Source: a virus
Direction: 5' to 3' (one strand)
Length of the DNA: 36,769 nucleotides
Virus record (IMG/VR): IMGVR_UViG_3300029915_000079
Coordinates: 1-36,769 of that record
The position numbers and the translations under genes were made by a program. Under the pieces are notes generated by a model, which saw only the letters and a list, made by a program, of their open reading frames with translations, ran no database searches and was not told the origin of the DNA. Numbering within the stretch: the stretch's first letter is position 1; every line of letters starts with the position of its first letter. This document shows, in pieces, positions 2,389 through 36,769 of the stretch.

Positions 2389-2607
2389 ATGAAAAAAGAA
2401 GTTTTCGATTCAATAGACAAACAATTTGTTTTGTCTGTAATCCCAGAAGCCAAAATGAGAATTGTAAAAAATAAAAATGTATCACTTAGATATGAGATTT
2501 ATAATTGTAGAAATATTTTAGCGGTTAGTTTTGTAAATGAGAAAACAGCTTGGATTTGGGCAAAAAAAGTTGTAAATAATCAATTAATAAATAAACTAAA
2601 TAAGTAA
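2389..2607 (+). CDS. Small paralogous protein, W-x-x-A-W family, diverged
   Basis: This 72-residue protein has the family pattern: QFVLSVIPEAK near the N-terminus, and TAWIWAKKVVNNQLINKLNK at the end. An AGGAGAAA ribosome-binding site precedes the ATG. It sits directly upstream of the IF-1 gene. No function is recognised. Confidence 0.7.
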   Translation: MKKEVFDSIDKQFVLSVIPEAKMRIVKNKNVSLRYEIYNCRNILAVSFVNEKTAWIWAKKVVNNQLINKLNK

Positions 2608-2623
2608 AATAAGAAAGGAGAAT

Positions 2624-2839
2624 ATGGCACAAGCAGATCAAGTTAGTATTAAAGGAAAAGTAGTAAAAGCATTACCAAATACAATTTGGGAAGTTGAAAT
2701 TCCAGGAGGGCAGATTGTCCTTGCTTATCTTGGTGGTCGATTACGAAAAAATAATATTAGAATTGAACCAGGAGATAATGTTCAGTTAGAATTGTCTCCA
2801 TATTCTCTTGAGAAGGCAAGAATAGTTTATCGTTTCTAA
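2624..2839 (+). CDS. infA: Translation initiation factor IF-1
   Basis: The 71-residue product matches bacterial IF-1 over its full length. It has the S1-like OB-fold strands, the ALPNTIWEVEIPGG segment (LPNT is typical), the basic GGRLRKNNIRI segment, GDNVQLELSPYSLEKARIVYRF at the end, and the usual family length. IF-1 binds the 30S A site and works with IF-2 and IF-3 during initiation. An AAGGAG ribosome-binding site precedes the ATG. The gene lies between two small phage-type paralogues, so it is part of the phage genome and not a flanking host segment. A phage-encoded IF-1 is unusual. It might favour phage messages, many of which here appear leaderless, but that is inference. Confidence 0.93.
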   Translation: MAQADQVSIKGKVVKALPNTIWEVEIPGGQIVLAYLGGRLRKNNIRIEPGDNVQLELSPYSLEKARIVYRF

Positions 2840-2841
2840 CT

Positions 2842-3033
2842 ATGAATTACCGAGAAAAAGTTCTAGCAGTATATCCCAGCGCCAAATGCACTATAATAAA
2901 ACCTGGAGTAGTATCAGTTATTGGATTGGCTGATGACTCTTATAAATTCGGAGTTGGATACAGTCCATATTGGGAGTGGAAAGATGCATGGGAAGGTATT
3001 CAAGCAGACCTTGAATACTTATTAATGCAATAA
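2842..3033 (+). CDS. Small paralogous protein, W-x-x-A-W family
   Basis: This 63-residue protein follows IF-1 after two bases. It has KVLAVYPSAK at the N-terminus and WKDAWEGIQADLEYLLMQ at the C-terminus, the same two-block layout as the members at 17020-17847 on the other strand. The function is unknown. Confidence 0.75.
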   Translation: MNYREKVLAVYPSAKCTIIKPGVVSVIGLADDSYKFGVGYSPYWEWKDAWEGIQADLEYLLMQ

Positions 3034-3163: not shown

Positions 3164-3712
3164 ATGTCTGGATATATACCTATAGCTGTTGGTGAATTTG
3201 CTAATGATGGAACTGGCGATAATTTACGCACAGCATTTCAAAAAATTAATGCTAATTTTGCTAATGTATCAGGCAATGGCAATTTAGCAAATGTAGCTTT
3301 TTCATTTCCTAGTGGAGTCGGCACACTTGATCAAGGTTTGATTTCTTATGGAAATGGAGCTACATTTTGGGGAACATTTTCAAGTATCCAGCCAATAAAT
3401 TATACAATGGCTAATGCTCATCCTGTAATTGATCTTTCTATTAGTAATAAACAATTTATTACATTAACTAGTAATGTATCATCAAGTATTGCAATTAATG
3501 GTGTTGATGGAATAGAATATACTTTTTTAATTGAACAAGGGGTTACAGGAAATTTTAGCTGGTCTTGGCCAAATAATTTTGCAGGAGCAGGAAATATTTC
3601 AATCGGAAATGTTAATACTTCTCCCAACACATATAGCACTCAAAAATTTTTATATGCAAATATTTCAAATATATTTTATGGAACAACTCCATTAGTAACT
3701 AGCGGTAATTAA
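3164..3712 (+). CDS. Virion (baseplate/tail-fibre-like) protein
   Basis: The N-terminus contains GEFANDGTGDNLRTAFQKIN-type sequence (DGTGD-x-L-R-T-A-F-x-K-I-N-x-N-F). This module recurs in structural proteins of T4-like phages. The rest is Asn/Ser/Gly/Thr rich with beta-strand character, as in tail-fibre or baseplate appendages, and it has no catalytic motif. It is preceded by a late promoter box and followed one base later by the next structural gene, so the three virion genes probably form one late transcript. Confidence 0.65.
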   Translation: MSGYIPIAVGEFANDGTGDNLRTAFQKINANFANVSGNGNLANVAFSFPSGVGTLDQGLISYGNGATFWGTFSSIQPINYTMANAHPVIDLSISNKQFITLTSNVSSSIAINGVDGIEYTFLIEQGVTGNFSWSWPNNFAGAGNISIGNVNTSPNTYSTQKFLYANISNIFYGTTPLVTSGN

Positions 3713-7221: not shown

Positions 7222-8517
7222 ATGTTTTTAAATGATGTTACTGGATTTTCTGAAAAATCTCATAGAAAAATAATAGTAGAGTGCGATATTAAATTAAGCG
7301 AAAAATGTAAAAATATTTATAAATCAGATTATAGAACTGGGATGATTTGCCGAGAGAATAATAATGGAAAAGATATATGCTTGAATTGTTCAAGGCAATT
7401 AAAACATTCTGGAAGAAACAATCCAAATTGCAAATATTTATTAGATGATAATTTTTTTAATGAAATTGATTCAGAAGGGAAAGCGTATCTATTGGGATGG
7501 ATTGCAAGTTATGGAGCTATTAATAAAAATGGAGAAATAGCTATTGAAATTCATAATAAAGATACTAAAATATTTAATTCTTTTAATAAAATATTAGGAA
7601 TAAATTTTGCTGCCAAATTACATAAATCACGTCCTATGAAAACATTTAGATTTTGCTCTGGAAAAATTGTTAAAGATATTTGCAAACATTTAGAAATTCC
7701 TCCTGGAGCAAAATCATTTACAGTTCAATTTCCCAAAAGTATTTATTATAATAATTTTTTGGGTTGGGCATTTATACGAGGAGTGTTTGATGGGGATGGT
7801 TCTGTAAATAGACCATGGAATAAACAATCTCATGGATTTTCTTATCCCACAATTAATATAGCTTCAAGCTCTCCAAAATTTAGGGAAGATATATTTTCAT
7901 TTATAAATATTCCTGGAAGGAATGCTGCAAAAAGATCAATATTGGAATGGGATGGAAACAATGCATTAGATGTTTTGGGGAAAATGTATGATAATGCAAA
8001 CTATTATTTAGAAAGAAAATATGAACTTTATTTTCAATGGAAATTATGGGTCCCTGGATTGAGCGGTTCAGGAACTCATAGTAATAATATTCAATTTAAA
8101 TGTGTCAAAACTTGTCAAGATGCAATTTTGCCATCAAAAGCCAATCCAAGCGATTCTGGATATGATTTAACATTGCTTTCAAAAATTAAACAACTGGGTG
8201 ATGTTGAATATTATGATACTGGTATAAAAGCACAAATATCATATGGATATTGGCTAATGATGGCACCAAGAAGTTCCATGTCAAAAACTGGCTATACTTT
8301 TGCTAATGAACTTGGTATAATTGATCGTTCTTATGTAGGAAATATAATTGTGGCTTTGAGAAAGGTTAATAAAGATATGCCAGATATTCAGTTACCTTGC
8401 AAACTTGCTCAATTAATTCCAATTCCTGCAATTCATTGTGGCGAAGTTATAGAAGTTGAATCTTTAGAAGAAAGTAGTCGTGGTTCAGGCGGCTTTGGGT
8501 CAACTGATAGAAAATAG
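7222..8517 (+). CDS. dut: LAGLIDADG homing-endonuclease-like domain fused to dUTPase
   Basis: The C-terminal 145 residues are a trimeric-type dUTPase (dUTP to dUMP and pyrophosphate). They show motif 1 SGYDL, motif 2 PRSSMSKTG, motif 3 NELGIIDRSYVG and the C-terminal motif 5 RGSGGFGSTDRK. The first ~280 residues contain a Cys-rich segment (CDIKLSEKC, CLNC) and two LAGLIDADG-type helices, LLGWIASYGAI (about residue 90) and FIRGVFDGDGSV (about 190), typical of homing endonucleases. The fusion is in frame, with no dUTPase residues before the endonuclease, so it is not an ordinary intein. Either it is a bifunctional protein or the endonuclease has captured the start of the dUTPase gene. dUTPase activity should protect phage DNA from uracil. 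Confidence 0.88.
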   Translation: MFLNDVTGFSEKSHRKIIVECDIKLSEKCKNIYKSDYRTGMICRENNNGKDICLNCSRQLKHSGRNNPNCKYLLDDNFFNEIDSEGKAYLLGWIASYGAINKNGEIAIEIHNKDTKIFNSFNKILGINFAAKLHKSRPMKTFRFCSGKIVKDICKHLEIPPGAKSFTVQFPKSIYYNNFLGWAFIRGVFDGDGSVNRPWNKQSHGFSYPTINIASSSPKFREDIFSFINIPGRNAAKRSILEWDGNNALDVLGKMYDNANYYLERKYELYFQWKLWVPGLSGSGTHSNNIQFKCVKTCQDAILPSKANPSDSGYDLTLLSKIKQLGDVEYYDTGIKAQISYGYWLMMAPRSSMSKTGYTFANELGIIDRSYVGNIIVALRKVNKDMPDIQLPCKLAQLIPIPAIHCGEVIEVESLEESSRGSGGFGSTDRK

Positions 8518-10173: not shown

Positions 10174-10530
10174 ATGGATATAGAAATGAAACAGGAAGAA
10201 ATCCGTCCAGTAATTTCAGCCAAACAACTCATACCATTGCATAAAGATGTATTGGTTTATGATATGTATTTTGGAGAAACTGTCACTTCGGCTGGCATTA
10301 TTATTTTAGATGACGATAAGAAAGAACGAGGAATCCATCCTCGTTGGGCAAAAGTATATGCAGTTGGCCCAGATCAAAAAGATATCGTTTCAGAACAGTG
10401 GATTTTAATTGAGCATGGTAGATGGTCTAGGGGAATTGATATAGAAGATTTAAATATTACAGTCCGAAGAGTAGACCCAAAATGTATTTTGGGAATAAGA
10501 AATAGCGATCCAGGTATAGAAAAAGCTTGA
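10174..10530 (+). CDS. GroES-like co-chaperonin
   Basis: The 118-residue protein fits the GroES fold: IPLHKDVLVYDMYFGETVTSAGIIIL aligns with the N-terminal strand and the mobile loop that docks on GroEL. This is followed by a region with AKVYAVGP and a closing strand. T4-type phages encode similar proteins (gp31) that replace host GroES so that GroEL can fold the major capsid protein. AAAGGAG precedes the start. I judge the assignment from pattern and length, not from alignment. Confidence 0.7.
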   Translation: MDIEMKQEEIRPVISAKQLIPLHKDVLVYDMYFGETVTSAGIIILDDDKKERGIHPRWAKVYAVGPDQKDIVSEQWILIEHGRWSRGIDIEDLNITVRRVDPKCILGIRNSDPGIEKA

Positions 10531-10561: not shown

Positions 10562-11500
10562 ATGAATATTGAAAATAGTTTGTGGGTTGAGAAATATAGG
10601 CCGAAAACATTATCTGAATATGTTTTCAGTAATGCGCAACAAAAATTACAAATAGAAAAATGGGTCAAAGACCAAGATATTCCGCATATTTTGGCGAGCG
10701 GTCCTGCTGGAACTGGAAAAAGTACAATTGCTTATGTTCTCATTAACGAATTGAATATTGATCCTTATGATGTATTATGGATCAATGCAAGTCGAGAAAG
10801 AAATATTGATACCATGAGAGATAGAATCACTTCATTTGTAAGTACAATTCCTTTTGGAAAAATGAGAATTGTTGTTTTGGATGAGGCAGATGGGTTGAAT
10901 CAGCTTTATGCTCAGCCAGCTTTGCGTGGAATCATGGAACAATATTCTTCTACGAGTAGATTCATTTTAACGTGTAATTATCCCCATAAAATTCTTCCAG
11001 CAATTCATTCAAGAACACAATCATTAAAAATTAATAAGATGGATGTTACAGAATTCACTGTAAAAATAGCTGAAATTTTGATGAATGAGAATGTTGAATT
11101 TGAATTAGATGTTCTAGATGATTATGTTAAAAAATATTGGCCCGACATGAGAAAAGCCATTGGGACTTGCCAATTAAATAGTATCAATAATAAACTTATA
11201 GCAGACGATGACAGTAGTACTAATACTAAAGATTATAAAATTGACGCAATAGAATTATTTAAAGCAGGAAAAATTAGAGAAGCAAGGCAATTGATTTGTA
11301 ATCAAATACGAGTAGAAGAATTAGAAGATTTTTTTAGATTTTTATACGATAATTTAGATTTATTTGGGACAACTGATCAAGAAAAAGATTCTGCAATTCT
11401 AAAAATTAGGAAAGGTTTAGTTCAGATTCCACTCGTCGCTGATGCTGAAATATTAATTTCAGCAGTATTAATAGAATTATTTCAAAAAGATAATCAATAA
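10562..11500 (+). CDS. 44: Sliding-clamp loader AAA+ ATPase (T4 gp44-like)
   Basis: The protein starts with LWVEKYRPKTLSEYVF, the hallmark of RFC-small-subunit/gp44 ATPases. It has Walker A SGPAGTGKST (about residue 46), Walker B VVLDEADGL (about 102), a sensor-1 LTCNYP and an SRTQ segment with the arginine finger (SRT). Its length of 312 residues is close to T4 gp44 (319). In T4, gp44/gp62 opens the gp45 clamp and loads it on primed DNA. I see no convincing gp62 or gp45 in the window. The promoter spacing suggests leaderless translation. Confidence 0.9.
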   Translation: MNIENSLWVEKYRPKTLSEYVFSNAQQKLQIEKWVKDQDIPHILASGPAGTGKSTIAYVLINELNIDPYDVLWINASRERNIDTMRDRITSFVSTIPFGKMRIVVLDEADGLNQLYAQPALRGIMEQYSSTSRFILTCNYPHKILPAIHSRTQSLKINKMDVTEFTVKIAEILMNENVEFELDVLDDYVKKYWPDMRKAIGTCQLNSINNKLIADDDSSTNTKDYKIDAIELFKAGKIREARQLICNQIRVEELEDFFRFLYDNLDLFGTTDQEKDSAILKIRKGLVQIPLVADAEILISAVLIELFQKDNQ

Positions 11501-13700: not shown

Positions 13701-14381
13701 ATGCGCCTAAATGAACTAATGAAACAAATTGATATGAAGAAGGACAAGCTTGATGTTTGGTCAGCTGGCTATGGCGGATTTAATAATCACGAAGAAGAAA
13801 AAGATGAAAAAATCGTTAAGTTCATAGAAAAGAATTGTTCTAAATTTTTAAGAGAAATGAGAAGAACTGGAAATTTCTTGTATAGAGGTATTGATAAACT
13901 AGAAAAAGTTCCAGTAGTATACTTGGCTACCACTCCATTACATAGAGTTCCTATAGGGCAGAGTACTAAAGCACAACATATTTTGGATAGAATATTCAAA
14001 CTAGTTGGATTTAAGGCTTTGCGTATTAATTCTGTCCCATGCACTTCAGATATAAAAAATGCCTCAAAATGGGGAAATTTGCATATTATATTTCCAATCA
14101 ATGGTTTTGATTATATGTGGTGCGAAAATATACATGATATTGGCGGAGATTTTTCTTTGGAAAGATCGCTTATGGACTTTACTAAAGAGAGTGGAAGAAT
14201 TCAAACTCCATTAAACAAACAAACAGCTAGAGCTTTTGTGGAAAAATGGGGATTTACAAATGAAGATTTTGTAGAAGCTATGTCAGCAGAAACAGAAATT
14301 TCAATTCATGGTCAATATGTTGGAATTCAACGTGATGAAATAATGGGATCAAAAATATTAATGAAAGCATTTACGGAATAA
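13701..14381 (+). CDS. Putative ADP-ribosyltransferase-like protein, paralogue 1
   Basis: One of three paralogues (also at 15085 and 15820). The shared order is: N-terminal MRLNEL-type start; an N-terminal helix; FLYRGID (Arg); RINSVPCTSD (Ser/Thr-containing motif); IIFPINGFDYMW; and a C-terminal E-I-S-I-H-G-Q-Y-V-G-I strand with Glu. Arg, Ser/Thr and Glu in this order suggest the R-S-E class of ADP-ribosyltransferases, but this is a motif-level guess. T4 packages ADP-ribosyltransferases (Alt) into its head. Here the late promoter and shared N-terminal motif fit a virion-delivered effector, which is inference. Confidence 0.6.
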   Translation: MRLNELMKQIDMKKDKLDVWSAGYGGFNNHEEEKDEKIVKFIEKNCSKFLREMRRTGNFLYRGIDKLEKVPVVYLATTPLHRVPIGQSTKAQHILDRIFKLVGFKALRINSVPCTSDIKNASKWGNLHIIFPINGFDYMWCENIHDIGGDFSLERSLMDFTKESGRIQTPLNKQTARAFVEKWGFTNEDFVEAMSAETEISIHGQYVGIQRDEIMGSKILMKAFTE

Positions 14382-17019: not shown

Positions 17020-17244
17020 TTATTCCTCTAATTTCTTTATTAATTTTTCTTGTATTCTTTTCCATGTATCTATCCATGCCCTTTCAGAATTGGGTTGCCA
17101 TCTTCCTTCAAGAGATTTGTTTAGATAACATGTAATTAAAACGTCTTCTGACAATTTATCCATTGCTACATAGTATCTATATTCATGTGCATCAGGATAT
17201 ATTTTGAGAACTTTTTGTTTTGCTTCTTCTGCTTCTGAAATCAT
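17020..17244 (-). CDS. Small paralogous protein, W-x-x-A-W family
   Basis: This 74-residue protein has KQKVLKIYPDAHEY near the start and SERAWIDTWKRIQEKLIKKLEE at the end. It overlaps the preceding paralogue by four bases (ATGA). It is one of four in tandem. The function is unknown. Confidence 0.8.
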   Translation of the reverse strand: MISEAEEAKQKVLKIYPDAHEYRYYVAMDKLSEDVLITCYLNKSLEGRWQPNSERAWIDTWKRIQEKLIKKLEE

Positions 17245-17447
17245 TCAGATAATTTCTCCATAATTTTTTCTTGAATATATTTCCATCCTTCCTCCCATAT
17301 TGATTCTGGGCAATACGTCCACAAACCATTTTGGGGATTTTTATCTTGATCAAAGATGAGAACTTGAGCAGAATTTTTATTTCCTACATAAGCTTTAGCG
17401 TTTGGATAAATTTTTAGCACTTGCTCTTTGTAATATGCAGAAGTCAT
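17241..17447 (-). CDS. Small paralogous protein, W-x-x-A-W family
   Basis: 68 residues with YKEQVLKIYPNAKAY and a C-terminal WEEGWKYIQEKIMEKLSE helix. It has four-base overlaps on both sides within the tandem set. The centre (about residues 18-45) is unrelated to that of its neighbours, while the ends are conserved. Confidence 0.8.
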   Translation of the reverse strand: MTSAYYKEQVLKIYPNAKAYVGNKNSAQVLIFDQDKNPQNGLWTYCPESIWEEGWKYIQEKIMEKLSE

Positions 17448-17653
17448 TTAGATAATTTCTCTATTATTTTTTGTTGAATTGCATACCAAGCATCTATCCA
17501 TGCTTTTTCTTCTGAAGTATTCCAATAACTAATTGGACAAAATTTTGTACTAATATACACGTCTGGATTCCCAGCACCATCCCAAATATGTTCTATGGCA
17601 TCTGGATAATATTCCAAAACTTTTTGTTTTGCGTGATTTGCTTCTTCTGTCAT
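17444..17653 (-). CDS. Small paralogous protein, W-x-x-A-W family
   Basis: 69 residues with AKQKVLEYYPDAIEH and EEKAWIDAWYAIQQKIIEKLSK. It is tandem and translationally coupled by four-base overlaps. The closest sibling by eye is the gene at 17020. Confidence 0.8.
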   Translation of the reverse strand: MTEEANHAKQKVLEYYPDAIEHIWDGAGNPDVYISTKFCPISYWNTSEEKAWIDAWYAIQQKIIEKLSK

Positions 17654-17847
17654 TGTGTTAATTTCCCTTCAAGATTAACGAGCATTTGCTTATAAGCATC
17701 TATCCGAGCGTTTTCTGTATCTGACGCAGACCCCAAAATCATACAATCAGAAGATAGATCAGATAGAATATAATTTCTATTATTATGTTTATAAAAATAC
17801 TCATTTGCTTCAGGAAATATTTTTAGCACTTTTATTTTTTCATTCAT
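17650..17847 (-). CDS. Small paralogous protein, W-x-x-A-W family, diverged
   Basis: The start at 17847 is chosen because its ATG overlaps the stop of the preceding gene (ATGA); a start at 17883 would overlap it by 40 bases. The product begins MNEKIKVLKIFPEANEY and ends ARIDAYKQMLVNLEGKLTQ, keeping the ends of the family but losing the tryptophans. Confidence 0.7.
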   Translation of the reverse strand: MNEKIKVLKIFPEANEYFYKHNNRNYILSDLSSDCMILGSASDTENARIDAYKQMLVNLEGKLTQ

Positions 17848-18125
17848 GACATTATCTTCGCTAATAGTTTCGCTTCTTTGCATGGTTTTCTAATATAGTT
17901 AATTGCATAAACATCTTTTTGAATAGCTGCGAGTTGTAATTCTTTTATTGGATTATTTATGTAAATGATATCATAATTTTTCTGATCAAATTCTTCCAAC
18001 ATAAGTTCGTCACATGATTTTTGTTTATCATTGTTCGTTACAAATATATAATTCTGCAAAGCATTTAACTTCTCATGCTTGTTGATCATTTTTTGATCAT
18101 AATGTGAAATTAATTTTTTATTCAT
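17844..18125 (-). CDS. DUF4116-related protein, single repeat
   Basis: The C-terminal half reads PIKELQLAAIQKDVYAINYIRKPCKEAKLLAKIMS. This is a diverged DUF4116 repeat plus the same closing helix (K-L-M-A-K-L-L-S type) as the genes at 19863, 20564 and 31728. The N-terminal half is not a repeat. It forms the upstream part of the small-paralogue operon and overlaps its neighbours by four bases. Confidence 0.65.
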   Translation of the reverse strand: MNKKLISHYDQKMINKHEKLNALQNYIFVTNNDKQKSCDELMLEEFDQKNYDIIYINNPIKELQLAAIQKDVYAINYIRKPCKEAKLLAKIMS

Positions 18126-19862: not shown

Positions 19863-20498
19863 TTAAGACAGCAATTTAGCCATTAATTTGACATTAATTG
19901 TTGGCTTTTTTATGCATTCAATTGCACAACCATTTTGTTGAACAGCAGCCATTTGCACAGCTTCGCTTGGCTTGCTGATGTATTTAATTGCACAACCATC
20001 TTCTTGAACAGCAGCCAGTTGCACAGCTTCGCTTGGTTTGTCGATGTGTTGAATTGCACGACCATCTTGTTGAACAGCAGCCAGTTGCACAGCTTCGCTT
20101 GGCTTGTCGATGTAGTAAATTGCACAACCATATTGTTGAACAGCAGCCATTTGCACAGCTTCGCTTGGCTTGTCGATGTATTGAATTGCACGACTAGTTT
20201 GTTGAACAGCAGCCAGTTGCACAGCTTCGCTTGGCTTGTCGATGTAGTAAATTGCACGACCATATTGTTGAACAGCAGCCATTTGCACAGCTTCGCTTGG
20301 CTTGTCGATGTAGTAAATTGCACGACCATATTGTTGAACAGCAGCCATTTGCACAGCTTCGCTTGGCTTGCTGATGTATTTAATTGCCCAACCATCTTGT
20401 CGAACAGCAGCCATTTGCACAGCTTCGCTTGGCTTGTCGATGTATTTAATTGCACGACCATCTTGTCGAACAGCAGCCAGTTGTGCTTTTTCATCCAT
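19863..20498 (-). CDS. DUF4116 repeat protein, nine repeats
   Basis: The 211-residue product starts MDEKAQLAAVRQDGRAI and consists of nine 22-residue DUF4116 repeats. It ends PTINVKLMAKLLS, a closing helix shared with the genes at 20564 and 31728. Variation between repeats is concentrated at the residues after AAVQ, around x-G-x-AI-x-YI-x, while DNA elsewhere is almost identical. Such a pattern suggests recombination among copies with selection at exposed positions. The message is probably leaderless. Long open frames on both strands here are by-products of the periodicity. Confidence 0.85.
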   Translation of the reverse strand: MDEKAQLAAVRQDGRAIKYIDKPSEAVQMAAVRQDGWAIKYISKPSEAVQMAAVQQYGRAIYYIDKPSEAVQMAAVQQYGRAIYYIDKPSEAVQLAAVQQTSRAIQYIDKPSEAVQMAAVQQYGCAIYYIDKPSEAVQLAAVQQDGRAIQHIDKPSEAVQLAAVQEDGCAIKYISKPSEAVQMAAVQQNGCAIECIKKPTINVKLMAKLLS

Positions 20499-20563: not shown

Positions 20564-20935
20564 TTAAGACAGCAATTTAGCCATTAATTTGACATTAATT
20601 GTTGGCTTTTTTATGAATTGAATTGCCCAACTATCTCGTTGAACAGCAGCCATTTGCACAGTTTCGCTTGGCTTGTCGATGTAGCAAATTGCCCGACTAG
20701 TTTCTTGAACAGCAGCCATTTGCACAGCTTCGCTTGGCTTGTCGATGTGTTGAATTGCACGACCATCTTGTTGAACAGCAGCCAGTTGCACAGCTTCGCT
20801 TGGCTTGTCGATGTAGTAAATTGCACGACCATATTGTTGAACAGCAACCATTTGCACAGCTTCGCTTGGCTTGTCGATGTATTGAATTGCACGATAATTT
20901 CGTTGAACAGCAGCCAGTTGTGCTTTTTCATTCAT
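20564..20935 (-). CDS. DUF4116 repeat protein, five repeats
   Basis: The 123-residue product starts MNEKAQLAAVQRNYRAI and has five DUF4116 repeats with the closing PTINVKLMAKLLS helix. One repeat has KPSETV in place of KPSEAV, shared with the last repeats of the gene at 21645, so the two are recent relatives. The promoter and start have the same leaderless arrangement. The function is unknown. Confidence 0.84.
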   Translation of the reverse strand: MNEKAQLAAVQRNYRAIQYIDKPSEAVQMVAVQQYGRAIYYIDKPSEAVQLAAVQQDGRAIQHIDKPSEAVQMAAVQETSRAICYIDKPSETVQMAAVQRDSWAIQFIKKPTINVKLMAKLLS

Positions 20936-21644: not shown

Positions 21645-22127
21645 TTAATTTGACATTAATTGTTGGCTTTTTATGAATTGAATTGCCCAATAATTTCGTT
21701 GAACAGCAGCCATTTGCACAGTTTCGCTTGGCTTGTCGATGTAGCAAATTGCCCAACTATCTTCTTGAACAGCAGCCATTTGCACAGCTTCGCTTGGCTT
21801 GCTGATGTATTCAATTGCACGACCATATTGTTGAACAGCAGCCATTTGCACAGCTTCGCTTGGCTTGTCGATGTATTCAATTGCATAACCATTTTGTTGA
21901 ACAGCAGCCAGTTGCACAGCTTCGCTTGGCTTGTCGATGTAGTAAATTGCCCGACCATTTTGTTGAACAGCAGCCATTTGCACAGCTTCGCTTGGCTTGC
22001 TGATGTATTCAATTGCACAACCATTTTGTTGAACAGCAGCCATTTGCATAGCTTCGCTTGGCTTGTCGATGTATTGAATTGCATAACCATTTTGTTGAAC
22101 AGCAGCCAGTTGTGCTTTTTCATTCAT
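21645..22127 (-). CDS. DUF4116 repeat protein, frameshifted C-terminus
   Basis: This gene has seven DUF4116 repeats from ATG 22127. Its last residues are IKSQQLMSN instead of the usual IKKPTINVKLMAKLLS. The cause is visible: a run of five T at 21668-21672 where the sister genes have six. Restoring one base would extend the frame to a stop at 21625 and give the standard ending. It is either a real frameshift or a homopolymer sequencing/assembly error. Promoter and start are as in the sister genes. Confidence 0.8.
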   Translation of the reverse strand: MNEKAQLAAVQQNGYAIQYIDKPSEAMQMAAVQQNGCAIEYISKPSEAVQMAAVQQNGRAIYYIDKPSEAVQLAAVQQNGYAIEYIDKPSEAVQMAAVQQYGRAIEYISKPSEAVQMAAVQEDSWAICYIDKPSETVQMAAVQRNYWAIQFIKSQQLMSN

Positions 22128-22301: not shown

Positions 22302-22505
22302 CTAAAAACGTACAGTTTTTATTCCACTTCCGTTACAAGACCAACATTCTTTCCAATCTCCTTCATCTGTCACAAAACAACTATGTCGCCATCGATATAT
22401 ACCAAGGCCATCGCACTGTTTGCATCTATGTTCTTCAGGAATTTTCTCTCGACGATCATAGTGATATTCAATAGGACCTGTCACATTTGTTGGATTAATC
22501 CACAT
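22302..22505 (-). CDS. Small DnaJ-type zinc-finger protein
   Basis: The 67-residue product carries two C-x-x-C-x-G-x-G motifs (CKQCDGLG and CWSCNGSG) separated by about 20 residues, as in the DnaJ central zinc domain. The start overlaps the end of the QueD gene by 11 bases. In phages such stand-alone fingers have no assigned role; zinc or protein binding is likely. Confidence 0.7.
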   Translation of the reverse strand: MWINPTNVTGPIEYHYDRREKIPEEHRCKQCDGLGIYRWRHSCFVTDEGDWKECWSCNGSGIKTVRF

Positions 22506-23046
22506 AATTTCCTTTGTATTCAGCGCCAGAAGTAGGAGTTTCTTTGAATACTATAGAATCTAGTCGTGCTTGATTGTTTGTAGCAACTAAAATTTTTGGT
22601 CTTAAAATTTCAAAAAAATGTTTGGCCAAAGATTCTGCTGTTGGGTAATCTGCTATGATATATGTTTTTCCAAAATTTGTTTGACCAAACCAAAAACTAT
22701 CAATTTTAATTGATTTTTTGATATTATTATGCCAATCTATATAAATTTCTTTAGTCAATCGATCACTATATGCCATTCCCATAAATTTTTCATCTTTAAA
22801 CGACAATATCATAGCATGATCGCAATGAGCATCAATATTTTCAACAAGTAAATTTTTTAGAAAACCATAATCAAAAATCATTTGAGTTTGGGGGCCACTC
22901 TCAAATAATTTTCCAGAAAGATAAGCAATCACTTTCCCTCTGTGGCCATGACATGAACTACATTTTCCTGGCTTGCCGTCAAAAGTTTCATGTAGTGCAA
23001 CTCTATGTCCATAATCAAATTCAATTTCTTTATATATAATATTCAT
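22495..23046 (-). CDS. queD: QueD/6-pyruvoyltetrahydropterin synthase family
   Basis: The protein has the family features: an N-terminal strand with a histidine (FDYGHRV), a cysteine and the HxH zinc ligand (KCSSCHGHRGKV), FDYGFLKNLL, an IDAHCDHAM segment with the Asp/His pair, and PTAESLAKHFFEIL near the end with the substrate-binding Glu. QueD makes 6-carboxy-tetrahydropterin in the queuosine/7-deazaguanine pathway. No QueC, QueE, FolE or transglycosylase is visible here, so the product would feed a host pathway or phage genes elsewhere (tRNA or DNA deazaguanine modification). Confidence 0.85.
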   Translation of the reverse strand: MNIIYKEIEFDYGHRVALHETFDGKPGKCSSCHGHRGKVIAYLSGKLFESGPQTQMIFDYGFLKNLLVENIDAHCDHAMILSFKDEKFMGMAYSDRLTKEIYIDWHNNIKKSIKIDSFWFGQTNFGKTYIIADYPTAESLAKHFFEILRPKILVATNNQARLDSIVFKETPTSGAEYKGNYVD

Positions 23047-27039: not shown

Positions 27040-27372
27040 TAAAGGAAATTTTATAGTTCCGTTTCTTTTACAAGGACGGAACAACTCCTCGGAGTAAAGC
27101 TTATTAGGCGTTTACTAGCTCAGTGTTGCGGAGATTCACAGAATACGTGAAAATCTTTGCACTGCCATTGATACCAGAGGTAGCAATTATTGTTTATGTG
27201 TCCATTTACGATGGCCACACCAGTCGGCTCGTCAGTAGTCCAACCACACGTCAATCGATACCATGACAGGCCCAAATAAAACATTGAATCATAAATTTGG
27301 TGGACCTGACCGGAGTTGAACCGGTGTGTTGTCCGTTGATTTTATACTGTCCTTTCACGAGCGTTATTTAAC
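27040..27372 (-). ncRNA. ssrA: Circularly permuted tmRNA
   Basis: On the minus strand the 3' half comes first: T-arm 27309-27325 (ACCGG, loop TTCAACT, CCGGT), acceptor strand CAGGTCC (27302-27308), A73, and encoded CCA (27298-27300). A 24-base AT-rich spacer follows, then the 5' half: GGGCCTG (27267-27273), which pairs with CAGGTCC in seven pairs including G3-U70, the alanine identity element. Next come GGTATCGATTGACG, resembling the tmRNA D-loop region, and a hairpin near 27197-27220. Then an 18-codon tag frame (27101-27160) from GCA ends in TAATAA inside a stem-loop (AGTAAA/TTTACT), and a last hairpin at 27056-27082. This order is that of two-piece permuted tmRNAs. The ends are approximate. 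Confidence 0.82.
27101..27160 (-). other. tmRNA tag reading frame
   Basis: From resume codon GCA (27158-27160) the frame encodes AKIFTYSVNLRNTELVNA and ends in two TAA codons. The stop codons lie in the loop closed by AGTAAA/TTTACT. The tag is longer than that of E. coli, and its ending -LVNA differs from the common -LAA. Confidence 0.65.
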
Positions 27373-27384: not shown

Positions 27385-28013
27385 TCCTTAAAAACTTTTT
27401 GCTTTGCAGCCAAATCATATGTCTCATCACTTACATATGATAATTCACCAAATCCGTCCAATGAATATCCAATCAGTTGAGCAAATTGCTCACGATCTTC
27501 ATTTGAGAAATTCATAATAGCCAGAGAATTCATGTCTGCTATGCCTTTTTGTGTTGCAATGTCAATAAGATAGCTAACAATAGCATTTTCTTTAAATCTG
27601 GTTGTTCCAACTTTGTCGCTAACTAATGGTTGTATTGGATGAGTTGCTTTCATTATTTTTACACCAAGTTCTTTCTTTAAAGCATTAAATTCTTCTAATT
27701 TTATTGAACGTTCAGACTTTTTCTTGCTATTATCAAGATCATTTTTATAAATTTTTGCGACGGCAACAGGATCAGCAGCATCAAAAATTGACTTTGGGAG
27801 AGTAATAGAATCTGAGCAGTTACATCCAGCAGCCCTCCAGCTATAGTTCACAATTACATGAGTTTCATTTGACCATACATCGTCGTAATGATCATTATTC
27901 AAATTAAATACAGACAATACTTCTGTGATTAAACCATAAAATTCTTCACGTTTAATAGAAGCATTTTCCTCTGCTTTATCTAATTGTTTCTTCAGTTTAT
28001 CAAAGTTACTCAT
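27381..28013 (-). CDS. Hypothetical protein, 210 aa
   Basis: An N-terminal coiled coil (FDKLKKQLDKAEENASIKRE) precedes a domain with WSNETHVIVNYSWRAAGCNC; a long helix with Lys/Glu follows. No known family is recognised. It overlaps the RlmN-like gene by four bases (ATGA) and is co-transcribed with it. Confidence 0.7.
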   Translation of the reverse strand: MSNFDKLKKQLDKAEENASIKREEFYGLITEVLSVFNLNNDHYDDVWSNETHVIVNYSWRAAGCNCSDSITLPKSIFDAADPVAVAKIYKNDLDNSKKKSERSIKLEEFNALKKELGVKIMKATHPIQPLVSDKVGTTRFKENAIVSYLIDIATQKGIADMNSLAIMNFSNEDREQFAQLIGYSLDGFGELSYVSDETYDLAAKQKVFKE

Positions 28014-28978
28014 AAATAAGTCTCTTTATAATCAACCAGCGGAAGCGTTCCACTTAAAATGGCATTTCCACAAGTGATCCTACCTAAATCCTCTTCTACG
28101 GAAGCGATGAAAGTGAGCACATCATACCCTGCCTTCTTCAAAGCATCCTCGTGGTGGATGTACGGATGGAAGTCAGTGTAATCACCTTCCGTTTGAATCC
28201 CGTTATCAAGAGCAGTGTGCGTCTTATGCATCGGAGTTAGCTTGCACACGTAAAGCGATGGATCGAAGTAGTTCAATAGCACGGTTGGATCAATCTCGTA
28301 ACCGGCAACAGCGAAATTGAGAGTGATCTTTCTTCCTACAGGAATAATTCCTTCCATAATCCTTGCGATCTCTTCAAACGTGCAAGCGTTGTTATGAAAC
28401 ATCTTGTCGCGCTCACTCTTACTCGTTGAGTTGATCGACAGTTGAAGTCCTGCATTTCCGTTGTACAAACGGTTCTTCATCCTCATCCAGTTGTGGATGA
28501 ATGTCTTCAACCAGATATTCCTACGCGGCATCATTGTTGACACTACTGGATGAATATGAAAAGTGTCGTTCATGTGAGTATGGAGCCACTTTCCACAATC
28601 AAGGACGTTAGGATTCCAAGTAGGTTCTCCCATTCTGGCGAAGTGAACATTCAATCTCTTTGTGCCAGTAATTTCTGGATGAAGTTTTAGCGCACACAAA
28701 ATTTGACCAGTGAGATCGTAAAAAGACGCATTCTTTCCAGGTCCAACTTTGGGGCAATCGCAAAAACTACATCCCATACTGCACCCAAATTGCGTTGACA
28801 CTGTAATTACCCATTTTTCTGTTAAAGGCATAATTTCTTGGTGAGCAACAGCTTTGTGTTGATTCAAATTTACATCTTGCCCATAATCTCCGAGAGATAA
28901 AAATTCAATTTTCCCTTCACTACCTTGAGCAATACAAATATGGCCAGTTGGAACTTCAAGCAATCTTTCGATCTTCAT
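28010..28978 (-). CDS. RlmN/Cfr-like radical SAM enzyme
   Basis: The 4Fe-4S motif is CSMGCSFC (C-x3-C-x2-C), as in RlmN/Cfr. Other features are HFARMGEPTWN (MGEP motif), PVVSTMMPRRN, LQLSINST, LTPMHKTH and a C-terminal DLGRITCGNA segment, whose cysteine corresponds to the methyl-carrying cysteine of RlmN. RlmN methylates A2503 of 23S rRNA and A37 of some tRNAs. At 322 residues it is shorter than host RlmN at the N-terminus, so the target may differ. GC content is higher than in its neighbours. Confidence 0.82.
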   Translation of the reverse strand: MKIERLLEVPTGHICIAQGSEGKIEFLSLGDYGQDVNLNQHKAVAHQEIMPLTEKWVITVSTQFGCSMGCSFCDCPKVGPGKNASFYDLTGQILCALKLHPEITGTKRLNVHFARMGEPTWNPNVLDCGKWLHTHMNDTFHIHPVVSTMMPRRNIWLKTFIHNWMRMKNRLYNGNAGLQLSINSTSKSERDKMFHNNACTFEEIARIMEGIIPVGRKITLNFAVAGYEIDPTVLLNYFDPSLYVCKLTPMHKTHTALDNGIQTEGDYTDFHPYIHHEDALKKAGYDVLTFIASVEEDLGRITCGNAILSGTLPLVDYKETYL

Positions 28979-30310: not shown

Positions 30311-30337
30311 GCGGAGACAGGATTTACCTGTCTCCGC
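30311..30337 (-). terminator. Terminator overlapping end of CCA-enzyme gene
   Basis: An 11-bp perfect stem (30311-30321 with 30327-30337) is followed on the minus strand by TTTATTTT. Its 5' arm encodes the last residues (GGDR) and the stop codon is in the loop. Confidence 0.75.
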
Positions 30338-31649
30338 CAGTCAAAGATTCAACGAAAAATACAGCTTCGTCACGAGTTGTTACACGCCCGTCAAGCTGCG
30401 CATTTTCGAGTGCAGTAAGCAAAGTCTTAAACATCGGGCCAGGCTTCAACCCCATTGCCTGCAAATCGTTTCCAGTAAGCAGACGAACAGGATTCAAAGA
30501 CTCTTCAGTGACACTTGCAAGAAAATCAACAGCAAAATTGAAATCAGTGAGATCACCATTACTGCAAAGACTATCAAGACGATTCAGTTCAAGCAATTCG
30601 CTGAAATTTTCCTGACGAACGAATCTCTTCAACTTGGAATCATTCATCTTCGTTACGTTGAAAAACTTCATGTGCTGAGAAACAAGGCTGCTAACAGCAT
30701 CTACAACTTCATTTGAAAATCGAAGATTGCGAAGCATCTTTGCAGCCATTTCAGCACCGACTGTTTCGTGGCCAAAAAACTGATTTTCACCAGTCTTTAC
30801 GTTACGAACAGCAGTTGTTGGTTTTGCCACATCATGAAGAAGGACAGACAAGGCAAGAGTGACGCTGCAATTCGCAGGAAGCTTAGACAGCATGAGCAGA
30901 GTATGCTGAAAAACATCTCCTTCTGGATGAAATTTGCTATTTTGATCCACACCACGCATTGCATTGACTTCAGGCAAAACATGCTGAAGCAATCCAGTGT
31001 TGTCCATAAGCTTGAAAGCAACATTGACATTGCCACCAGTCAGCATCTTGACAAGTTCTCCGCTAACACGATCAGGCGGAAGAGTTTCAACAGAAAAAGC
31101 CCTCTTTTCTATTGCTTCATGAGTTTCCCGATCAAATCGAAGATTAAATCGCGCTGCGAAACGGACAGCTCGAAGTAAACGCAATGCATCTTCAGTGAAA
31201 CGAGTTTCAGGATTTCCAACAGCCCGGAGCAAACCATTCTGCAAATCAGTCTGTCCACCAACAAAATCGTAAACATTTCCGTTTCGATCCATGAGCAAAG
31301 CATTCATGGTAAAATCTCTTCTAGCAACATCTTCTTCAGCAGACAAAGTGAAGTCCACAAAATCTGGGCGGCGATTATCGCTATAATCTCCATCACGACG
31401 GAATCGCGCAACTTCAAATGTTTCTCCATTGTATTCAACAAGAGAAACGCCAAAATTTTCTCCCACCATCTTTGTATTGGGAAAGAGAGAATCCACGACT
31501 TCAGCAGGGGCAGAAGTAGTTACATCCCAATCGTGTGGAGTCAAGCCAAGAAGCAAATCTCTGACCGCGCCCCCGCATAAAAAGGCATCGTACCCTGCAT
31601 TTTCAAGAGTCTCCATTACTGCCAGCGCATTTTGATTCATCTTGGTCAT
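30324..31649 (-). CDS. cca: CCA-adding tRNA nucleotidyltransferase with HD domain
   Basis: Start 31649 (MTKMNQNALAV) has GGAGAAAA upstream. The head domain shows FLCGGAVRDLL and HDWDVTT (metal-binding D-x-D), RRDFTMNAL and the EDALRLLRAVRFAARF motif. These are signatures of class II CCA-adding enzymes. The C-terminal half contains an HD domain (LLHDVAKP), which acts as a phosphohydrolase in related enzymes. It would repair or add the CCA end of tRNAs, and possibly the tmRNA here, although that gene encodes its own CCA. GC content is higher than in its neighbours. Confidence 0.93.
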   Translation of the reverse strand: MTKMNQNALAVMETLENAGYDAFLCGGAVRDLLLGLTPHDWDVTTSAPAEVVDSLFPNTKMVGENFGVSLVEYNGETFEVARFRRDGDYSDNRRPDFVDFTLSAEEDVARRDFTMNALLMDRNGNVYDFVGGQTDLQNGLLRAVGNPETRFTEDALRLLRAVRFAARFNLRFDRETHEAIEKRAFSVETLPPDRVSGELVKMLTGGNVNVAFKLMDNTGLLQHVLPEVNAMRGVDQNSKFHPEGDVFQHTLLMLSKLPANCSVTLALSVLLHDVAKPTTAVRNVKTGENQFFGHETVGAEMAAKMLRNLRFSNEVVDAVSSLVSQHMKFFNVTKMNDSKLKRFVRQENFSELLELNRLDSLCSNGDLTDFNFAVDFLASVTEESLNPVRLLTGNDLQAMGLKPGPMFKTLLTALENAQLDGRVTTRDEAVFFVESLTGGDR

Positions 31650-31668
31650 AGTTTTCTCCACTAAAATA

Positions 31669-31697
31669 AGTATACTAAACTTTAGGTGATTTGTCAA
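31669..31697 (-). promoter_or_regulatory. sigma70-like promoter of CCA enzyme
   Basis: TTGACA (31692-31697), 17 bp, TATACT (31669-31674). The leader is about 13 bases with GGAGAAAA. The shared CACTTATTTTCTTATTGAC block is upstream. Confidence 0.82.
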
Positions 31698-31727: not shown

Positions 31728-31901
31728 TTAAGACAGCAATTTAGCCATTAATTTGACATTAATTGTTGGATTGTCGATAAATTCAATTGCATGACCATCT
31801 TGTTGAACAGCAGCCAGTTGCACAGTTTCGCTTGGATTTCTGATGAATTGAATTGCCCAACCATTTCGTTGAACAGCAGCCAGTTGTGCTTTTTCATCCA
31901 T
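31728..31901 (-). CDS. DUF4116 repeat protein, two repeats
   Basis: The shortest family member (57 aa) starts MDEKAQLAAVQRNGWAIQF, has two 22-residue repeats, and ends in PTINVKLMAKLLS. It shows the minimal architecture: start, repeats, closing helix. The promoter is leaderless as in the other copies. Its short length suggests that repeat number varies by recombination. Confidence 0.78.
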   Translation of the reverse strand: MDEKAQLAAVQRNGWAIQFIRNPSETVQLAAVQQDGHAIEFIDNPTINVKLMAKLLS

Positions 31902-36216: not shown

Positions 36217-36769
36217 TTATCTTTTCCTTATGTATTTAATTGGACGACCATATTGTTGAACAGCAGCCATTTGCACAGCTTCGCTTGGTTTGTCGATGTA
36301 TTTAATTGCACGACCATCTTGTTGAACAGCAGCCAGTTGCACAGCTTCGCTTGGCTTGTCGATGTATTGAATTGCATAACAATCTTGTTGAACAGCAGCC
36401 AGTTGCACAGCTTCGCTTGGCTTGTCGATGTATTGAATTGCATAACAATATTGTCGAACAGCAGCCAGTTGCACAGCTTCGCTTGGATTTCCGATGTATT
36501 CAATTGCACAACTATTTCGTTGAACAGCAGCCAGTTGCACAGCTTCGCTTGGATTGCTGATGTGGTAAATTGCATAACCATTTTGTTGAACAACAGCCAG
36601 TTGCACAGCTTCGCTTGGCTTGTCGATGTATTTAATTGCACGACCATTTTGTTGAACAGCAGCCAGTTGCACAGCTTCGCTTGGCTTGCTGATGTATTGA
36701 ATTACCCAACCATTTTGTTGAACAGCAGCCAGTTGCACAGCTTCGCTTGGCTTGTCGATGTATTTAATT
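36217..36769 (-). CDS. DUF4116 repeat protein, 5' end outside window
   Basis: The frame is open to the right edge. Eight full repeats and part of a ninth are visible, and the C-terminus is GRPIKYIRKR without the usual PTINVKLMAKLLS helix. Repeats use DKP, SKP, SNP and GNP before the SEAV core. Its end lies four bases before the phosphoesterase gene. It may be truncated at its 3' end by recombination with that gene's upstream region. Confidence 0.82.
   Translation of the reverse strand, partial: IKYIDKPSEAVQLAAVQQNGWVIQYISKPSEAVQLAAVQQNGRAIKYIDKPSEAVQLAVVQQNGYAIYHISNPSEAVQLAAVQRNSCAIEYIGNPSEAVQLAAVRQYCYAIQYIDKPSEAVQLAAVQQDCYAIQYIDKPSEAVQLAAVQQDGRAIKYIDKPSEAVQMAAVQQYGRPIKYIRKR

Follow-up and report, generated by a model that had tools for sequence, protein, structure and literature searches.

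An old and stably placed gene for translation initiation factor IF-1 in a clade of jumbo phages

The window, by which we mean the whole stretch of viral DNA analysed here (36,769 nucleotides, IMG/VR record IMGVR_UViG_3300029915_000079), carries a gene for translation initiation factor IF-1 between small phage genes. The features used below are these:

2389..2607, + strand: small YPxA-type paralogue directly 5′ of infA (HMM, 39.1 bits)
2612..2623, + strand: Shine-Dalgarno region of infA, AAAGGAG directly 5′ of the ATG (sequence)
2624..2839, + strand: infA, 71-aa translation initiation factor IF-1 (Pfam, NCBIfam, phmmer, AlphaFold, Foldseek)
2842..3033, + strand: small YPxA-type paralogue directly 3′ of infA (HMM, 31.4 bits)
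3164..3712, + strand: gene with the motif NDGTGDxLRxAF, putatively tail-type
7222-8517, + strand: endonuclease-like N-terminal part joined to a dUTPase domain (phrog_135 and phrog_4645)
10174-10530, + strand: GroES-like or head-morphogenesis gene, immediately 5′ of the clamp loader (PHROGs)
10562..11500, + strand: sliding-clamp loader of T4 gp44 type, 7.9 kb downstream of infA (phrog_168, 2.2e-76)
22495..23046, − strand: QueD-like protein of the 6-pyruvoyl-tetrahydropterin synthase family (phrog_2389)
27157..27362, − strand: permuted tmRNA (RF04321, 73-75 bits, gathering 47)
28010..28978, − strand: radical-SAM-like protein with a short RlmN/Cfr-like stretch (phrog_24834)
30324..31697, − strand: CCA tRNA nucleotidyltransferase, start codon uncertain (PHROGs and NCBIfam matches)

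The infA ORF runs from an ATG to a TAA over 71 codons, and reading of the opposite strand is interrupted by stop codons. Its product scored 71.2 bits (E 5.5e-20) against Pfam eIF-1a PF01176, whose cut-off is 30.2, and 78.5 bits (E 2.7e-22) against the NCBIfam infA equivalog TIGR00008, exceeding the curated cut-off of 61.15, and phmmer aligned it with E. coli IF-1 (9fco_I) from residues 1-70 to residues 1-70 without a gap (E 1.8e-18). RsgA_N and TOBE_2 were weak Pfam matches, and the sole match in PHROGs was phrog_30201, which is filed there under unknown function. Judged on these alignments, the ORF is a full-length bacterial-type IF-1, as a sequence-only reading of the window had proposed, and it is the only copy in the 36.8-kb window. 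The same reading predicted leaderless mRNAs, and for infA this fails because a Shine-Dalgarno sequence precedes the gene. Candidate leaderless starts do exist elsewhere on the + strand, at 13701, 14390 and 15820, where AATAAATAC boxes, candidates for late-promoter-like elements, stand a few bases 5′ of the ATG and no Shine-Dalgarno sequence is present.

The AlphaFold model of the product (mean pLDDT 90.8) is a predicted five-strand OB fold with a short helix between strands 3 and 4 (E8-17, E21-25, E31-36, H38-42, E52-57 and E64-70), and this order of elements is the one given for C. difficile IF-1 in the available part of PMC10913371. When the model was searched against the PDB with Foldseek, the best 12 matches were all bacterial IF-1, with TM scores of 0.91 for E. 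coli IF-1 on the 30S subunit and 0.88 for 1hr0 (IF1 on 30S), and the window IF-1 is 41-48% identical to these twelve solved structures. In the same part of PMC10913371, K39 and M42 contact G530, R41 and R46 contact A1492/A1493, H35, Y60, R64 and R66 contact S12, and R70 is critical; a preprint, as far as its available text goes, places IF1 in the A site, with h44 and uS12 on either side, where it contacts A1492 and A1493 (PMC13345285). The window IF-1 keeps R41, R46, Y60, R66 and R70 in the alignment, and hence both arginines that contact A1492/A1493, so that neither ground named earlier against IF-1, lack of a significant profile match or loss of contact residues, applies. Its substitutions at contact positions are K39 to R, M42 to K, H35 to Y and R64 to K; R39 and K64 are conservative changes, and K42 is also the residue of E. 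coli. Comparisons with the IF-1 genes of loci L009, L010 and L012 gave pN of 0.17-0.23 and pS of 0.67-0.85, the latter near saturation, which indicates purifying selection.

The small paralogues seen on both sides of infA were borne out by an HMM built only from the small proteins of L001, L002 and L004, which gave further matches at 1843-2094 and in four ORFs within 17020-17883, and no match to IF-1 itself. This YPxA-type family also surrounds IF-1 in related IMG/VR contigs, and the stretch L004:1-10126, from a 360-kb phage contig, holds a long array of such paralogues around IF-1. Among the stretches of 54 loci examined, the putative tail-type gene, with its motif as NDGTGDxIRxAF, was found 0.6-4.6 kb downstream of IF-1 on the same strand in 21, several of them near-copies, and never upstream or on the opposite strand. 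Elsewhere in the window, the product of 7222-8517 is possibly a homing-endonuclease or intein fusion, and proteins with PSEAVQLAAVQ-type repeats, which yield ORFs on both strands, occur at 1-354, 19863-20498, 20564-20935, 21645-22127, 31728-31901 and 36217-36738. Near the clamp loader of PA5oct, GAP32 and CBB, too, the annotation gives a chaperonin or head-morphogenesis gene.

Close IF-1 relatives, with 68-79% identity, lie in IMG/VR contigs, one of them of 359,890 bases. To avoid circularity, relatives were recruited with the clamp loader instead of IF-1, and of the 80 clamp-loader loci, IF-1 was searched in the 20 that lie on contigs >100 kb and outside the IF-1 set. IF-1 exceeded the Pfam cut-off in 15 of these 20 contigs; in this clade it is common, and the earlier view of viral initiation factors as rare is wrong here. 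In three of the remaining five contigs, the sequence upstream of the clamp loader, where IF-1 is to be expected, extends for no more than 11.5 kb; in G040 and G041 IF-1 is absent despite 43 and 72 kb upstream, and these two look like real absences. With both recruitment sets pooled, 31 of 35 records have IF-1 on the strand of the clamp loader and 7-30 kb upstream of it. Lak-C1 and LR756508, which have weak clamp-loader matches, were omitted from this count, from the co-divergence test, from the clamp-loader tree and from the tally of three genes below; their IF-1 is not upstream and near that match, and with both included the count is 31/37. Moreover, IF-1 and the clamp loader were correlated in their pairwise distances (Mantel r 0.78, permutation p 0.0001) over 33 records that exclude G009, G021 and G016, whose IF-1 is identical to another row, and without the window's clade the correlation was 0.73 (30 records, permutation p 0.0001).

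In a clamp-loader tree with 46 rows, a clade of 42 records separates from GAP32, CBB, XbC2 and XaC1. IF-1 is present in 35 of the 42, and 20 of these 35 are the window or records recruited through IF-1; 3 are cut by contig ends and 4 are without IF-1 (PA5oct, Atu_ph07, G040 and G041). HMM searches of seven named relatives found IF-1 in Phosso alone. Its absence from the other six (PA5oct, Atu_ph07, GAP32, CBB, XbC2 and XaC1), as well as from G040 and G041, indicates that the gene is dispensable for some members. From the clade-wide presence, the synteny and the co-divergence with the clamp loader, we conclude that the window IF-1 is an old, stably placed phage gene and no recent pick-up; that it was ancestral in the clade and then lost in some members is the simplest reading of these data, and is not a proof.

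Concerning the company of IF-1, 22 of the 48 IF-1 loci served as handles in the surveys of IF-3, tmRNA and IF-1 copies, and exactly one IF-1 was found in each of 28 records. The window tmRNA matches RF04321 over model positions 1-213 of 213, with 73.1 bits in one search and 75.5 bits in a second, above the gathering score of 47, and its tRNA-like halves are in permuted order. A permuted tmRNA exceeded that gathering score in 13 of 28 IF-1 records and in 14 of 20 clamp-recruited contigs. ARAGORN reads an unusual tag of 26 residues in the window tmRNA, which ends in LVNA; most readable tags of relatives end in ALAA. The ribosomal protein bS21 is present in 24 of 48 records and was not found in the window's 36.8 kb or in the near relatives G001-G004. 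By a hand tally, IF-1, bS21 and permuted tmRNA occur together in 15 of the 17 clade records of at least 200 kb, and in 8 of 9 in the clamp-loader-recruited subset; the window has two of the three, IF-1 and the tmRNA. SmpB appears in only 1/28 records, and thus most of these tmRNAs would need SmpB of the host. IF-3 exceeded the cut-off in 2 of 27 IF-1 records.

In the sequence-only reading, IF-1, the tmRNA, a CCA enzyme, an RlmN-like protein and QueD together suggested takeover of several steps of translation, and of this package only the tmRNA holds up as a companion. The CCA enzyme is genuine but occurs sporadically (over cut-off in 6/28 records). The RlmN-like protein reached 39.1 bits against TIGR00048, far from the RlmN cut-off of 290, and its family is present in one of 48 records, which is the window. 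The QueD-like protein scored 51.8 bits, short of the 89.25 bits required by its equivalog model, although its match to a QueD-like PHROG stands; two QueD genes and bS21 are present in PA5oct, which has no IF-1.

In the IF-1 tree (125 rows by 72 columns, with the partial L054 and L056 and IF-1 rows of identical protein dropped), a stem of 0.93 carries the window together with L009, L011 and L012 (100*). The rows next to this clade were Helicobacter in one sampling and Verrucomicrobiota/Eubacterium in the other, and because they differ between samplings, the comparison with bacterial infA names no donor. A single phage IF-1 clade (p-AU 0.512) and a union of the window clade with the main phage group (p-AU 0.688) were both not rejected, 72 columns being too few to decide. 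The search included 32 named phage records with IF-1. Two records of Acinetobacter phage MD-2021a (one inspected) are host DNA by their neighbours; L138 (CAKLQH020000005.1), which bears this name, has truA, leuB and leuD beside infA, which is bacterial chromosome. Six unverified Listeria, Enterococcus and Staphylococcus records and three named ‘Bacteriophage sp.’ look like host or unsorted DNA (3 of these 9 IF-1s inspected). L138 and L143-L145 were grouped with bacteria in the trees and dropped from the residue comparison. Lysine-rich N-terminal extensions, for a total of 81-101 residues, occur on the IF-1 of L043, L044, L049, L050, L052 and L141 (Bacteroides phage DAC19).

Bacterial infC is autoregulated through its start codon. 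An equivalent control of phage IF-1 was considered and rejected: bacterial infA is similar in its start codons, and the window gene uses ATG. UUG or GUG starts were found in 9 of 15 clamp-recruited phage IF-1s and in 19 of 45 pattern-recruited ones, plus one AUA (rows L009-L055, L249-L258 and L290-L294). Non-ATG starts were found in 14 of 89 clamp-loader genes and 34 of 92 bacterial infA (phage versus bacterial infA, p 0.18), counts made with a crude start picker that gave unusual codons in 5 of the 34 bacterial and 5 of the 14 clamp-loader non-ATG rows.

IF-1 is the smallest initiation factor. We think it probable that the gene encodes a functional phage IF-1 that acts on the host 30S subunit to support initiation, where binding, timing and benefit are what we infer. 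The IF-1 sequence, the predicted fold, the kept decoding-centre contacts, the purifying selection and the fixed genomic place in one clade support this. During infection, the protein would be translated from its own Shine-Dalgarno sequence and would bind in the host 30S A site, where helix 44, the 530 loop and uS12 surround it; together with host IF2 and IF3, it would make start-site selection faster and checked, so that initiation would not be limiting while much phage mRNA is translated. It may act late, since infA is just upstream of tail-type genes and late expression is reported for phage bS21 in the available text of PMC9723584.

The residues that face the ribosome also bear on two other readings. 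H35 is found in 72 of 79 bacteria and in 2 of 15 clamp-recruited phages, and an aromatic residue (F/Y/W) at position 44 in 54 of 79 bacteria and in none of the 15, which are related and non-independent rows; the window has Y35, G37 and N44 where bacterial IF-1 usually has H, S and F/Y. That the window and these phages depart alike at 35 and 44 speaks against a plain host copy, though it may be one ancestral change, the phages being kin. N44 as a mark of phages was judged from these 15 rows, as many viral loci were recruited with a pattern that contains N44. Such differences near the ribosome-facing loop would suit an OB-fold RNA-binding protein that no longer serves initiation and instead works in phage gene expression, as an RNA chaperone or an antiterminator; the OB fold is common to IF-1 and other RNA-binding proteins, RsgA_N and TOBE_2 matched weakly, and IF1 moonlights in antitermination. 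This reading is unlikely: neither the 15 phages nor the window clade show any change at R41, Y60, R66 and R70, as would be expected if the ribosome constrains them. Variation at other contacts tells against the functional IF-1 that we think probable: position 46 is K, Q or N in 13 of the 15 clamp-recruited phages, and position 64 is K, Q, L or M inside the window's own clade. We are similarly doubtful that the phage protein is a competitor which displaces host IF-1 and thereby slows initiation on host mRNAs or shifts start choice to phage mRNAs. The clade-specific residues 35, 37, 42 and 44 do lie on the side facing uS12 and the 530 loop, and bS21, which is also related to initiation, accompanies IF-1 in related phages, but the window retains both A1492/A1493-contacting arginines and its K42 is that of E. 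coli.

An IF-1 ORF could also have a more trivial source, such as a host gene captured not long ago that plays no lasting part, or bacterial DNA that entered the assembly, and the Acinetobacter records above show that some ‘phage’ IF-1s are host DNA. For the window this is very improbable: phage-type neighbours stand on both sides, the clamp loader is 7.9 kb away, synteny and co-divergence tie IF-1 to it, and among the 80 bacterial IF-1s kept of 114 found, none is closer than 57%.

The reading we prefer, a functional phage IF-1 supporting initiation on host 30S, can be extended tentatively to the clade. The jumbo-phage clade that includes the Arenbergviridae phage PA5oct could have inherited a near-core set of IF-1, bS21 and permuted tmRNA without SmpB, and its IF-1 could have diverged on the side facing uS12 and the 530 loop, tuning host ribosomes to phage mRNAs; the sister GAP32/CBB group has IF-3. 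That a lineage has long kept its own IF-1 at a constant site, and mostly in the company of bS21 and tmRNA, suggests that the supply or quality of IF-1 may limit infection. Phage IF-1s are natural variants for a direct test of that limit, and the IF-1-carrying and IF-3-carrying sister groups form a natural comparison.

Compared with bacterial IF-1 (TIGR00008, PF01176), the window protein has the same length, fold and core contacts and aligns without gaps, whereas its gene stands beside tail-type genes rather than within a ribosomal or host operon. Al-Shayeb et al. (2020, PMC7162821) already published IF1 in huge phages and proposed that it redirects host translation; in the available text of that paper, tmRNA and S21 are listed too, IF1 is one item of a list, and clade-wide retention, position and co-divergence do not appear. 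The accessible part of PMC12363816 gives IF-1A as one of 39 conserved single-copy genes of Jug phages, a huge-phage group with an IF-1-family gene, whose predicted hosts are Bacteroides/Phocaeicola. Phages of the GAP32/CBB type, a sister group by the clamp loader, also carry an initiation factor, but it is IF-3, listed for CBB, GAP32, 121Q, PBECO4 and Rak2 in the available text of PMC5259590; HMM searches detected no IF-1 in GAP32, CBB, XbC2 and XaC1 and, conversely, IF-3 is scarce in IF-1 records. AP-J-162 has IF-3, S21 and a tmRNA (PMC11242549, available in part). Sinorhizobium phage Phosso (PV764938.1) has an annotated IF-1, a permuted tmRNA, bS21 and a related clamp loader, but its IF-1 is 16 kb downstream of the clamp loader and IF-3 is present too. 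A literature search, which covered partial texts and few subscription journals, found no report of clade-wide IF-1 synteny or of the set of IF-1, bS21 and permuted tmRNA. Phage-encoded IF-1 is thus already known, and what is added here is its presence at the level of a clade, its position, its co-divergence with the clamp loader and the set of three in which it occurs.
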